This document shows positions 241 to 35,924 of a DNA stretch of 48,173 nucleotides, one piece after another. Under the pieces are notes generated by a model that did no database searches, was not told the origin of the DNA, and saw only the letters and a program-made list of their open reading frames with translations. Each line of letters opens with the position of its first letter. The first letter of the stretch is position 1. The position numbers and the translations under genes were made by a program. The DNA comes from Phycisphaerales bacterium (GTDB taxonomy: Bacteria; Planctomycetota; Phycisphaerae; Phycisphaerales; UBA1924), in NCBI GenBank assembly GCA_020831775.1, contig JAFIFZ010000049.1, positions 1 through 48,173 on the forward strand, given 5' to 3'.

Positions 241-361
241 CGCCGCTCCTTCAGAGCGGTTGTTGTTTTTGGACTCTTCCACGGGTTCATCGATCTGCGA
301 CGCTGTGCGTCTTGATCGATTCACCCGTGGCAAAGTTCAGCGCCCGCTTCGCGGGCGGGGG
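241..361. repeat. Dispersed hairpin repeat (CCACGGGT...ACCCGTGG), copy 1
   Basis: A long imperfect hairpin pairs 279-295 with 314-330 (CCACGGGT at one tip, ACCCGTGG at the other, 15 of 17 positions pairing), with an inner GACGC/GCGTC pair. It is preceded by CTTCAGAGCGG and followed by a GCGGGC-rich block. A second copy with the same layout lies at 22973-23082. The outer arms are conserved while the inner stem differs in sequence but keeps pairing, which is typical of mobile palindromic (REP-like) elements. Confidence 0.6.
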
Positions 362-33112: not shown

Positions 33113-33538
33113 ATGAAGACGCAGAACCACCGCCGCCGCGCGATCCGCCATGCCCGTCGCGGCTTCTCGCTGCTGGAGATCATGCTCGTGCTCGCCATCA
33201 TCGGCGTGCTGATGGGCGTGGCGGCGGTCAACCTCCTCGGCCAGAGCGAGCGGGCCCAGGTCCGCGCCACAGAGCAGACGCTCGAAGTCGTGCGCCGGGG
33301 CATTGAGCAGTTCGCCATCGACAACCGCAACACCTATCCCGAGACACTCGAATCGCTCATCTCCGAGCGGATCCTCGAGCCCGGCAGCCTCGAAGACGCG
33401 TGGGGCGAGCCGCTCTACTACTCCCCCCAGCGTGACTCGGCGGGCAATCCCTATGTCCTGATCTCCGCCGGCCCGGACCGCGAGTTCGGCACCGAGGACG
33501 ACATCAACTACTGGGATGTGCGCAGTCGGAGGCGCTGA
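33113..33538 (+). CDS. gspG: Major pseudopilin GspG, copy 1
   Basis: A 141-residue GspG. The basic leader ends RRG|FSLLEIMLVLAI, with cleavage between G17 and F18, and the conserved Glu at position +5. A single hydrophobic helix is followed by the globular head with YYSPQRDSAGNPYVLISAGPD and the calcium-binding GTEDDINYWD end. It forms the pseudopilus fibre. GGGAGC lies before the ATG. The upstream region 32851-33112 shows a possible -10 (TAAACT) also found before copy 2. The gene is nearly duplicated 600 bases downstream. Confidence 0.95.
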   Translation: MKTQNHRRRAIRHARRGFSLLEIMLVLAIIGVLMGVAAVNLLGQSERAQVRATEQTLEVVRRGIEQFAIDNRNTYPETLESLISERILEPGSLEDAWGEPLYYSPQRDSAGNPYVLISAGPDREFGTEDDINYWDVRSRRR

Positions 33539-33725
33539 GGTCGATCGCCCCGGCGCTCGCGCCCTTCTCGCTGGCCTTGCCGGCGTCTCTGCGGGCCTCT
33601 GTCGAACGCGGATTCCGGTGCAATGTCGGCCTTTCTGGGGCGTTGAGCAGGGGGTGTAGACTGTTCATCAGCCCGTCGCGTCAGGCAGGGCGATCGTGCC
33701 CGAACGCGGGCAGGAGCGGACGGCC

Positions 33726-34151
33726 ATGAGATCGCAAACCAACCGCTATCGCAGACTCCGGCACGCCCGCCGCGGCTTCTCGCTGCTGGAGATCATGCTC
33801 GTGCTCGCCATCATCGGCGTGCTGATGGGCGTCGCGGCGGTCAACCTCCTCGGCCAGAGCGAGCGGGCCCAGGTCCGCGCCACAGAGCAGACGCTCCATG
33901 TAGTGAATAACGCCGTCAAGCAGTACGCGATCGACAACCGCAACACCTTTCCAGCGGGGCTGGAACTGCTGATCTCTGAGCGGCTGCTCGAACCGGGCAG
34001 CCTCGAAGACGCGTGGGGCGAGCCGCTGTTTTATTCGCCGAAGTCCGACTCGAACGCCAACCCGTTCGTCCTCATCTCCGCCGGCCCCGACCGGGAACTG
34101 GGCACCGAGGACGACATCAACTATTGGGATACCGCAGATCGCAGGCGTTAA
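33726..34151 (+). CDS. gspG: Major pseudopilin GspG, copy 2
   Basis: A second 141-residue GspG, same length and layout as the first. The ATG at 33726 has AGGAG upstream; an upstream ATG at 33696 is less likely. The leader and helix match copy 1 exactly at the protein level (RRGFSLLEIMLVLAIIGVL...RATEQTL). The head differs: HVVNNAVKQYAIDNRNTFPAGLELL against EVVRRGIEQFAIDNRNTYPETLESL. It ends GTEDDINYWDTADRRR. Two diverging copies could build mixed or alternative fibres. The TAA stop lies within the possible 5' end of the next pseudopilin gene. Confidence 0.93.
   Translation: MRSQTNRYRRLRHARRGFSLLEIMLVLAIIGVLMGVAAVNLLGQSERAQVRATEQTLHVVNNAVKQYAIDNRNTFPAGLELLISERLLEPGSLEDAWGEPLFYSPKSDSNANPFVLISAGPDRELGTEDDINYWDTADRRR
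33771..33896 (+). repeat. 126-base near-identical duplication (partner 33158-33283)
   Basis: The 126 bases encoding the pseudopilin cleavage site, helix and early head are identical to 33158-33283 except for one silent change (GTG/GTC at the Val codon). The flanking coding sequence has diverged. Confidence 0.9.
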
Positions 34152-34743
34152 GGTCCATCGTGTTCGCCGGTCCGCCGGCCGGCCGCGCCAGCAGCGGCGT
34201 GGGCGTGGCTTCACGCTCCTGGAGGTCCTGCTCGCGGTCTTCGCGCTGGTGATGATCACCGGGACGATCGGCGCCGCGTTGCAACTGGTCACCTCCTCGC
34301 AGCAGCGCCAGGAGCAGAACCTCGGCGCCGCCGAGCTCGCCAACCGCCTCACCCTCGTCTACCTCGACAACCCCAACGACCTGCCCCGCCCGGCCGAGCT
34401 CATCCCCTACGAGAACAGGACCTACCGCTATTCGCAGCAGGTCATCGAGATCACGCTGACCGAGAGCGATGCGGTGCAGCGGGTCCGCCGCGGCACCGGC
34501 ACGCAGCAACGCTCGAGGACAGCCGTGCGCCTCAACCGCATGCGACAGGTCACCACGACCGTCTGGCTCAGCGAGGAGTCCGGCGGCGGGCGCGAGGCCG
34601 GCCCCGGCGTGCCCCGCCAGACCGTCATCCGTCTGTACGACCCCCTCGACATCCGGCGGAATCCGGATGCCGCCGACAGAGCCTTCCAGCAACGCCAGGA
34701 AGAGCTCATCCGCGGCATCATGGACCAGATCGGGGACGAGTGA
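34138..34743 (+). CDS. GspI-like minor pseudopilin without a canonical start codon
   Basis: A clear pseudopilin: RRGRG|FTLLEVLLAVFALVM followed by a soluble head that ends at the TGA at 34741-34743. The frame is open upstream to 33973, yet between there and the helix it contains no ATG, GTG or TTG. The first canonical codons (GTG 34249, ATG 34252) lie inside the transmembrane helix. I place the start provisionally at ATC 34138 (GGGA eight bases upstream, basic leader VKVHRVRRSAGRPRQQRR). ATT 34123, a +1 shift from the gspG frame at its TAA stop, or a sequence error are alternatives. Length 201 residues if so. Its stop overlaps the next start (TGATG). Confidence 0.65.
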   Translation: MAGVKVHRVRRSAGRPRQQRRGRGFTLLEVLLAVFALVMITGTIGAALQLVTSSQQRQEQNLGAAELANRLTLVYLDNPNDLPRPAELIPYENRTYRYSQQVIEITLTESDAVQRVRRGTGTQQRSRTAVRLNRMRQVTTTVWLSEESGGGREAGPGVPRQTVIRLYDPLDIRRNPDAADRAFQQRQEELIRGIMDQIGDE

Positions 34744-35924
34744 TGGAGCTGAGCAGGGATCAGGGCGCAGGGCGCGACCGTGCCACCGACCTCGGCTCGG
34801 CGAGGTCGGTGCTTCAGACTCGCACCATCGCGGCGATGACGCAACGGCACCGACCTCTGGAAGAGGTCGGTGGCACGGGTTTGCCTCAATCCGCGAGCTG
34901 CGACCTTGCTGTGAAACACTGGCGGGCGAGCCGCCAGTGCCACAGGTCTATGGCCGGGCCGGTATCCCACACCCGTCCCCGCCACACCCGCCGAGGTTTC
35001 TCGCTGCTGGAAACGGTGCTTGCCGCGGCTCTCGGCGTGATCGTCGTCTTCGGCGCCACCGCGATCATCGGCGTGATGGGGCGGACCGACCGCTCGCTTG
35101 AGGTCCGCACCGTTTCGATGATGCAGATGGCCTCGCTCCGTCTGGCGCTGCAGCGGGCGTTCTCGGGGCTGGTGACCACCACCGTCGAAGATGCGCCGGG
35201 CATCGCCGGCACCAACATCGAAGTCACCGACGAAGAGGGCGCCACCACCCGCCGATCGCTCAGCTACGCCGAGCTCGTCGCGATCCGCTCGGAGGTCGAG
35301 GCGATCCCCGAGGTCTGGCAGCGCGAAGTTCCGATCGAGGACCTGCCCCGCCTCATCCTCCGGCAGGACCGCACCCCGAGCTACCTCGGCGGGCCCGTCT
35401 CGCCGACGGGGACGGAGTACATCCAGTCGTTCGAGGTCGTCGTGGAAGAGCCGCCCGCGGGCATGGGCTGGCCGGTCGACCTCGACCCGTTCGAAGCCGC
35501 CGAACTCGAAGAGAGCGTCGCGGGCTACCGCGGCATCTTCGAGCTCCGCCAGGACGACGACGACCTCGGGGGCTGGGCGATGTGGTGGAGGCCCCTCCGC
35601 CCCGACGGCACGCCCTACACCCTCGACACCAACCGCAGACACGGAATCAACGCCATCCGTCTGGCCAGCGGCATCGAGTCGCTCACCTGGGATGTCTTCT
35701 ACCGCAACGAGCGGCTCAGCGCCTACCAGGCCAGCGCTGCCGACGACCTGCCCGCGTATGTCGAGATCGAGGTCCGCGCCCTCTCGGGCCTCTACGCGAG
35801 CTGGATCTTCGAGGTGCAGTGGGCCACCGGCCCCGAGGTCGACATGCCCGACCTCGGCGGCGCCGCGGCTCCGCCCACGGGCGAGGGCGGCCAGGGCGGC
35901 GACGCGGGCGGGGAGGACGGATAA
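34743..35924 (+). CDS. GspJ-like pseudopilin with an extended leader
   Basis: A pseudopilin with RRG|FSLLETVLAAALG and a 300-residue beta-rich head that contains WDVFYRNERLSAYQ, typical of GspJ. From the ATG at 34743 (TGATG overlap, GGGGA seven bases upstream) the protein has 393 residues and an 85-residue leader, far longer than usual. The extra leader is encoded by palindromic repeats (34780-34943). From ATG 34950 the leader is a normal 16 residues (MAGPVSHTRPRHTRRG), but its ribosome site is poor. I think a repeat inserted in frame between start and leader; either start may be used now. Confidence 0.8.
   Translation: MELSRDQGAGRDRATDLGSARSVLQTRTIAAMTQRHRPLEEVGGTGLPQSASCDLAVKHWRASRQCHRSMAGPVSHTRPRHTRRGFSLLETVLAAALGVIVVFGATAIIGVMGRTDRSLEVRTVSMMQMASLRLALQRAFSGLVTTTVEDAPGIAGTNIEVTDEEGATTRRSLSYAELVAIRSEVEAIPEVWQREVPIEDLPRLILRQDRTPSYLGGPVSPTGTEYIQSFEVVVEEPPAGMGWPVDLDPFEAAELEESVAGYRGIFELRQDDDDLGGWAMWWRPLRPDGTPYTLDTNRRHGINAIRLASGIESLTWDVFYRNERLSAYQASAADDLPAYVEIEVRALSGLYASWIFEVQWATGPEVDMPDLGGAAAPPTGEGGQGGDAGGEDG
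34780..34943. repeat. Palindromic repeat cluster inside pseudopilin leader
   Basis: Three hairpins: CACCGACCTCG / CGAGGTCGGTG (34784-34794 with 34801-34811); CACCGACCTCT / AGAGGTCGGTG (34848-34858 with 34862-34872); and CACTGGCGG / CCGCCAGTG (34917-34925 with 34931-34939). The first two share arms with the repeat at 138-204. The cluster keeps the reading frame open. Confidence 0.75.

Follow-up and report, generated by a model that had tools for sequence, protein, structure and literature searches.

We consider it probable that a nest of small repeats entered the leader codons of a minor pseudopilin gene in the ancestor of a genus of Phycisphaerales, was read through and translated there, and later had its central element inverted in one species. 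The gene lies in a window of 48,173 nucleotides (the whole stretch of DNA that was analysed), which is contig C67 of the source genome G000 (3.55 Mb in 84 contigs). G001 and G002 are the other two genomes of the genus, at the species level, and all three are called the three congeners below; their completeness is 95% (G000), 89% (G001) and 79% (G002).

Structure of the pseudopilin locus and its repeat block

Model searches and gene order place the affected gene in a type II secretion-like operon with the order GspF-G-G-I-?-K-like (Table 1). Its product displays the GFSLLE segment followed by a hydrophobic stretch, that is, the prepilin motif together with the helix, and matches the N_methyl model PF07963 with an E-value of 0.0045 (17 bits, under the cut-off of 21.2). 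The GspJ model TIGR01711 has no match to it at E<=5, and the name GspJ is hence given from operon position alone. The tandem GspG-like genes for major pseudopilins share long stretches of 80-89% identity and are likely to be the outcome of a recent duplication or conversion.

Table 1. Features of the pseudopilin locus, in window coordinates
Feature	Position	Strand	Remarks
GspF-like gene	31636		match below curated cut-off
GspG-like pilin genes (two)	33113-33538 and 33696-34151
GspI-like minor pseudopilin gene	34174..34743	+	TIGR01707 gspI E 2.7e-5, N_methyl E 0.0012, both below cut-off; own start uncertain
TGA of the GspI-like gene	34741-34743		overlaps next ATG, 34743-34745
G-rich heptamer repeat (GGGATCA GGGCGCA GGGCGCG)	34757..34777	+	longer by 21 nt (three heptamers) in G002
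102-nt REP doublet, REPIN/BIME type	34778..34879	+	inverted REPs 34780-34812 and 34847-34876 around a spacer
Hairpin arms in the leader	34784-34793/34802-34811, 34848-34857/34863-34872, 34917-34925/34931-34939
Single REP of the second family (CACTGGCGG...CCGCCAGTGCCACAGG)	34915..34947	+	third hairpin
Alternative ATG in the tail of the second REP (CACAGGTCTATGGCCGGG)	34950..34952	+	TTT in G002
Gly codon of the prepilin cleavage site RR-G/FSLLE	34995..34997	+	cut after Gly
Mature GspJ-position minor pseudopilin with stop	34998..35924	+	named from operon position; 95% identical in two congeners
GspK-like gene	35925		match below curated cut-off

The three hairpins that a first-pass annotation of the window had described in frame between ATG 34743 and the cleavage site were located at the arms given in Table 1, and the relationship it had drawn between these arms and positions 138-204 is also borne out, as a degenerate relative, GCGCCGACCTCTGTTGGAGGTCGGGGGCAC, can be read there by eye. 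Its view of the block as one inserted palindromic repeat holds in part: the repeat character and the many copies are evident, but the block is composite, being a nest of three repeat families (the heptamer, the doublet and the second REP), which rules out a single mobile insert. The doublet comprises inverted REPs with a spacer and is able to form one hairpin. The 231-nt strand at 34730-34960 folds with -125.3 kcal/mol (z -5.1), a stability equalled by 0 of 200 shuffles, and the minimum-energy structure is one long REPIN-like hairpin formed from the paired outer arms rather than two small ones. An Rfam scan of the window found tRNA as the sole RNA family. The heptamer stretch measures 30, 30 and 51 nt between its anchors in G000, G001 and G002, respectively. 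For the second-family REP, many of the at least 70 matches of the block in G000 (see below) align at query positions 171-212. The tail of this REP, CACAGGTCTATGGCCGGG, recurs after an intergenic-looking REP beside another doublet at G002:C372, so that the ATG at 34950 is derived from the repeat and is not the ancestral start.

Phyletic pattern of the block

Comparison with related genomes, which the first-pass annotation had proposed as a way to find loci lacking the block, covered 25 GspI-GspJ-like loci of family relatives outside the genus. The junction between the two genes is readable at 15 of these (L015, L016, L018, L021-L024, L027, L028, L187-L190, L192 and L193) and not at the other 10, and the block is absent at all 15 readable junctions. 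The distance from the upstream stop codon to the cleavage site is 5-104 nt in these relatives, with a median of 28 nt, versus 251-287 nt in the three congeners. At 14 of the 15 junctions the upstream stop and a possible J-like start overlap, and at the remaining one the start lies 2 nt past the stop, giving leaders of 3-35 residues (3-18 in 13 of the 15), as against 85 residues in G000 (counting the Gly), 90 in G001 and 97 in G002. The consistent absence of the block outside the genus indicates that the nest entered the leader and lengthened it to 85-97 residues. Within the genus the block is present in all three genomes, none of which offers an empty pilin site, and both of the other congeners retain its repeat character; one of the observations named beforehand as speaking against an insertion, namely the same block in relatives devoid of such character, was thus not encountered.

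Reading frame and translation of the leader

The frame is open from ATG 34743 to the cleavage site in all three species, and as first noted it would yield a leader of 85 residues in G000, or one of 16 residues if ATG 34950 were used. The open frame alone is weak evidence, since in every congener the leader can be read without a stop in two of its three forward frames. The case made earlier for ATG 34743 survives as regards the TGATG stop/start overlap, which is kept in all three congeners, but less well as regards the ribosome site, whose GGGGA reads GGGGG in G001 and G002. Translation probably starts at ATG 34743.

A less probable alternative, which nevertheless deserves some weight, is that the repeats form an untranslated spacer, with the start lying downstream (ATG 34950 in G000 and G001, GTG or TTG in G002) and the frame being open by chance. 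The number of open frames over the leader fits this proposal, as does the behaviour of the doublet in general, copies of which have a mean of 4.6 of the six frames open versus 3.5 in shuffles (22 related copies, which are not independent). Outside the doublet, the leader has pN/pS values of 0.42 (G000-G001), 0.26 (G000-G002) and 0.75 (G001-G002), and the corresponding values for the mature pilin are 0.14, 0.13 and 0.03; the leader is accordingly weakly constrained relative to the mature pilin, and a codon model did not call it coding (best right-flank score 0.03). Passages of PMC3733652 further warn that a REP found at the amino end of an annotated gene often lies outside the real gene, and the length of 85-97 residues, far above the 3-35 seen in relatives, weighs against a translated long leader.

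Other observations speak against the alternative start. ATG 34950 is not retained in G002 (Table 1), where the next in-frame starts upstream are a GTG and a TTG, 33 and 43 residues before the Gly, respectively, and where it does occur it is situated within the repeat tail, after a hairpin, with what by eye is a weak-looking ribosome site. The overlapping ATG of the ancestor is kept, and the indels of the leader preserve the frame. Length differences among the congeners of 21 and 15 nt in the leader, 51 nt in ftsW and 90 nt in an MnmE-like gene (the latter two are described below) are all multiples of three, for which the chance is about 1/81 when all four are taken together and 1/9 for the two in the leader. 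Only the 21 nt lie upstream of ATG 34950, with a chance of 1/3, and they amount to three heptamers, the smallest frame-keeping change of a heptamer repeat. Prepilin leaders are described, in passages of PMC10191384, as variable in length and located on the cytoplasmic side; a translated leader would be tolerated because it is cytoplasmic and removed by the prepilin peptidase.

Probable inversion of the doublet in one species

In G002 the doublet is reversed between the same flanks, which are themselves uninverted, and the frame is still open. By BLAST, likewise, the doublet and the pilin gene are on opposite strands in G002 and on one and the same strand in G000 and G001. A further record, L132, reads identically and comes from the same assembly and contig as G002, so that the inversion is observed in one MAG assembly. 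At three other sites matched across species by their flanks, namely ftsW, C12/C272 and C52/C256, the orientation is the same, and the inversion hence affects one of four orthologous sites. Since the doublet is poor in stop codons, either of its strands is often readable, and an inversion keeps the length and therefore the frame.

It is unlikely, though to be weighed seriously, that the G002 arrangement reflects replacement by an oppositely oriented copy through ectopic gene conversion rather than inversion in place. Copies do seem to exchange sequence, as gene conversion among them would lead one to expect: identity between the pilin elements of G001 and G000 is 89%, as against about 94% in the flanks, and a 154-nt composite piece occurs at 92% identity elsewhere in G001. 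However, a comparison of 22 copies (5 partial or odd ones of 27 were dropped; 35 of 64 candidates in G002 were scored) showed that the G002 pilin element, once oriented alike, is 96% identical to the orthologous element of G000 and at most 92% identical to the next copies, the G000 pilin copy being the closest among 21 other full copies. No nearer donor is found among the G002 matches listed, and in a small tree the G002 element groups with the G000 pilin copy and the G001 C204 copy (support 0.83).

A regulatory role of the hairpins or of the invertible doublet in pilin expression, exerted either by an RNA structure that tunes translation or by an inversion that switches between two leaders, is very improbable: the fold is very stable and both orientations occur in nature and are read through, but a single orientation is known per species, the element is also found in unrelated genes (ftsW and the MnmE-like gene), its remaining copies are mostly not bordered by coding sequence on both sides, and the leader shows little constraint. 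We give hardly any credence to the specific notion of a reversible coding switch, in which the doublet would flip between its own inverted arms within populations and produce two alternative leaders; as both of its strands are stop-poor, either orientation would give a full-length prepilin, and such a switch, if true, would alter the targeting, processing or level of a secretion pseudopilin.

Copies across genomes and in-frame insertions in other genes

The expectation that other copies would be present in the same genome proved correct, as a search of G000 with 34743-34960 as the query returned at least 70 matches at E<=0.001 (best 40 of 189 candidates scored). The doublet by itself has at least 44, at least 34 and at least 26 whole or half matches in G000, G001 and G002, respectively, with at most the best 35 candidates scored per genome (35 of 64 in G002). 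Outside the genus, among the matches listed, it is detected in 8 of 13 genomes of the same family, in most cases as lone palindromes some 35 nt long, with one match of 99 nt at 72% identity in G011; none of the matches listed falls in the 9 genomes from other families of the order. The heptamer pattern, with up to three mismatches, is found 110, 70 and 88 times in G000, G001 and G002, against 18, 6 and 3 times for a reversed control. Degenerate heptamers of the forms GGGCGCN and CCCCAC(A/G) are frequent in the three congeners, some of them adjoining doublets.

The context of the copies was assessed at 60 places in G000, condensed by hand from 70 match rows by merging those of the same place or the reverse strand (one place has no right flank). 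The same best-scoring open frame occurs on both sides at 3 of the 60 places, and ftsW is the only one at which both flanks score positive as coding in a single open frame. This test of both flanks indicates, indirectly, that the copies are mostly extragenic like other REPs, and in-frame insertions appear to be the few that survived among copies that are otherwise non-coding; frequent intragenic insertion is unsupported, ftsW alone of the 60 places having passed. The pilin copy fails the test because the frame of another gene and the second REP adjoin it, and this site was judged from homology.

In ftsW, the 102-nt doublet (G000:C28:40238-40339; L002, L071) is in frame in all three congeners and codes for 34 residues within the loop that precedes a hydrophobic and probably transmembrane stretch. 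In G001 a further 51 in-frame nt, with the CCCCAC(A/G) heptamer, lie beside it. Among 22 relatives outside the genus, 13 have genes that align in two pieces, with a loop shorter by 25-44 residues, and three (G008, G010 and G025) have genes that align in one piece, with a loop shorter by just 6-21 residues; part of the gene alone was recovered in the other six, and absence of the doublet is indicated in the 13. The ftsW locus of G008 (L076) is devoid of the REP words, and its loop resembles, by eye, another inverted repeat (QWTVDSGQ...PLSTVHCP), suggesting that the FtsW loop may tolerate repeats in general.

The gene for an MnmE-like GTPase carries a REP and a doublet in frame in G001 (L114:2228-3310, C20). 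Its counterpart in G000 (L141, C81) lacks the doublet, has the heptamer repeat instead and is 90 nt shorter, and both matching contigs of G002 end at the insertion site. An in-frame element in a conserved gene that is missing in relatives is thus found at ftsW, the MnmE-like gene and the pilin leader.

Further sites were noted during the survey. The 154-nt composite copy of G001 (L112:3087-3240, C204), which by eye lies downstream of a dnaN-like gene, comprises the doublet and the second REP as if copied together. As a candidate empty site this location is uninformative, since G000 and G001 have repeats there and G002 has other sequence. The flanks of the element at G000:C7:47301-47413 (L046) match DNA of G001:C37 (L116) without an element at that point; the G001:C37 element lies some hundred bases off from the point matching G000:C7:47301, and this is possibly an empty site.

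REP type and the link to RAYT transposases

According to the definition in the part of PMC2817692 drawn on here, REPs carry a GT(A/G)G head that stays unpaired next to the palindrome. In G000 the head is GTGG in the second REP family and GTGC in the REP of the doublet, the latter departing from the definition in its fourth base. The RAYT model NF047646 scores above its cut-off (80 bits) in 12 of 25 genomes searched, and has no match in G000, G001 and G002. In the sister genus, represented by G005, a RAYT gene (C54:277-732, 107.9 bits) has a variant of the doublet's REP on both sides, with head-to-tail REPs of the type CCGTGCCACCGATNTCGGC..GACATCGGTGC on its upstream side and a single copy in reverse orientation on its downstream side, as determined by BLAST and reading. 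A RAYT-like gene of G003 (C116:12837-13313), which at 77.9 bits falls just under the cut-off of 80, has palindromes of the second REP family on both sides, and was the sole positive in an exact 10-mer/9-mer search around RAYT loci (17 scanned of 20 fetched). The presence of such REPs beside RAYT and RAYT-like genes in other genera, taken together with the lack of a RAYT match in the genus, suggests that the repeats are REP/REPIN elements for which no resident RAYT is detected and which may have been mobile once or in trans.

The sole Y1 transposase match of G000 is an IS200-type gene (C83:71243-71587, L072) flanked by CCACGGGT...ACCCGTGG palindromes. It is unsupported as a mobiliser because its flanking palindrome is a different one, and neither REP family is present in the 6.3 kb around it. 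A palindrome similar to CCACGGGT...ACCCGTGG occurs at window positions 281-330 and perhaps represents a further REP-like family.

Relationship to known repeat systems

The doublet closely recalls the REPIN, described in the relevant passages of Bertels and Rainey 2011 (PMC3116915) as an inverted REP doublet that forms a hairpin and is almost always extragenic. As in the accounts given there, it has inverted REPs with a spacer, a length of about 100 nt, many copies and one long hairpin, and REPs related to its own flank a RAYT gene in the sister genus. It differs from the REPIN of those passages in that some copies are in frame inside genes, in the lack of a RAYT match in the host genomes, and in its GTGC head.

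The assumption that an in-frame mobile repeat in a gene is unusual needs to be toned down, as sections of PMC3733652 record in-frame REPs and REP dimers within genes in several species and phyla. The GTAG/CGTC REPs treated in those sections (Di Nocera et al. 2013) resemble the present elements in that REPs or REP dimers lie in genes of known function, but have heads other than the GTGC or GTGG found here; in the present case, moreover, close relatives date the insertion and one copy is inverted in place, unlike what those sections describe. The classic in-frame case, as presented in parts of PMC10969869 and PMC3733652, is that of the Rickettsia palindromic elements, which are likewise palindromes of roughly 100-150 nt that occupy unrelated genes in frame and are tolerated by the proteins. 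They belong to another phylum, however, and most copies in G000 are without coding flanks on both sides, the likeness drawn here being one of behaviour. The Correia element of Neisseria, for which passages of PMC10969869 mention inversion, is similarly a small repeat with inverted ends; in those passages it lies mostly upstream of genes and has promoter action, and no inverted coding segment is described. In the papers listed on REPIN/BIME inversion, a selection that takes in few subscription journals, there is no report of an inverted intragenic doublet or of such a doublet in both orientations at one orthologous site. In-frame REPs are therefore already known (Rickettsia RPEs; Di Nocera 2013), and the in-place inversion is the new twist.

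Evolutionary implications

The scenario that we favour begins with a short leader in the ancestor of the genus, into the codons of which a non-autonomous REP doublet, a second REP and the heptamer repeat would have entered, between the conserved ATG overlapping the upstream stop and the cleavage site of the GspJ-like pseudopilin gene. As the nest contains no in-frame stop and its length is frame-keeping, the pilin gene reads through it, and the extra codons would specify a longer, hydrophilic and Arg-rich leader. Prepilin peptidase would remove this long leader, which would leave the mature pilin unchanged and make the insertion close to neutral. An inversion of the doublet in place would have followed in G002 after the species had split, the simplest routes being template switching or recombination between the doublet's own inverted arms.

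REP-type DNA has in this genus probably turned coding at three unrelated genes, including ftsW. The pilin case is bounded by relatives, with the block absent in other genera and present in three species of one genus, and nature here sets side by side both orientations of one coding repeat at a single orthologous site. Two questions can thereby be tested directly: how far a prepilin leader tolerates changes in its sequence and length, and whether REP doublets can invert in place.
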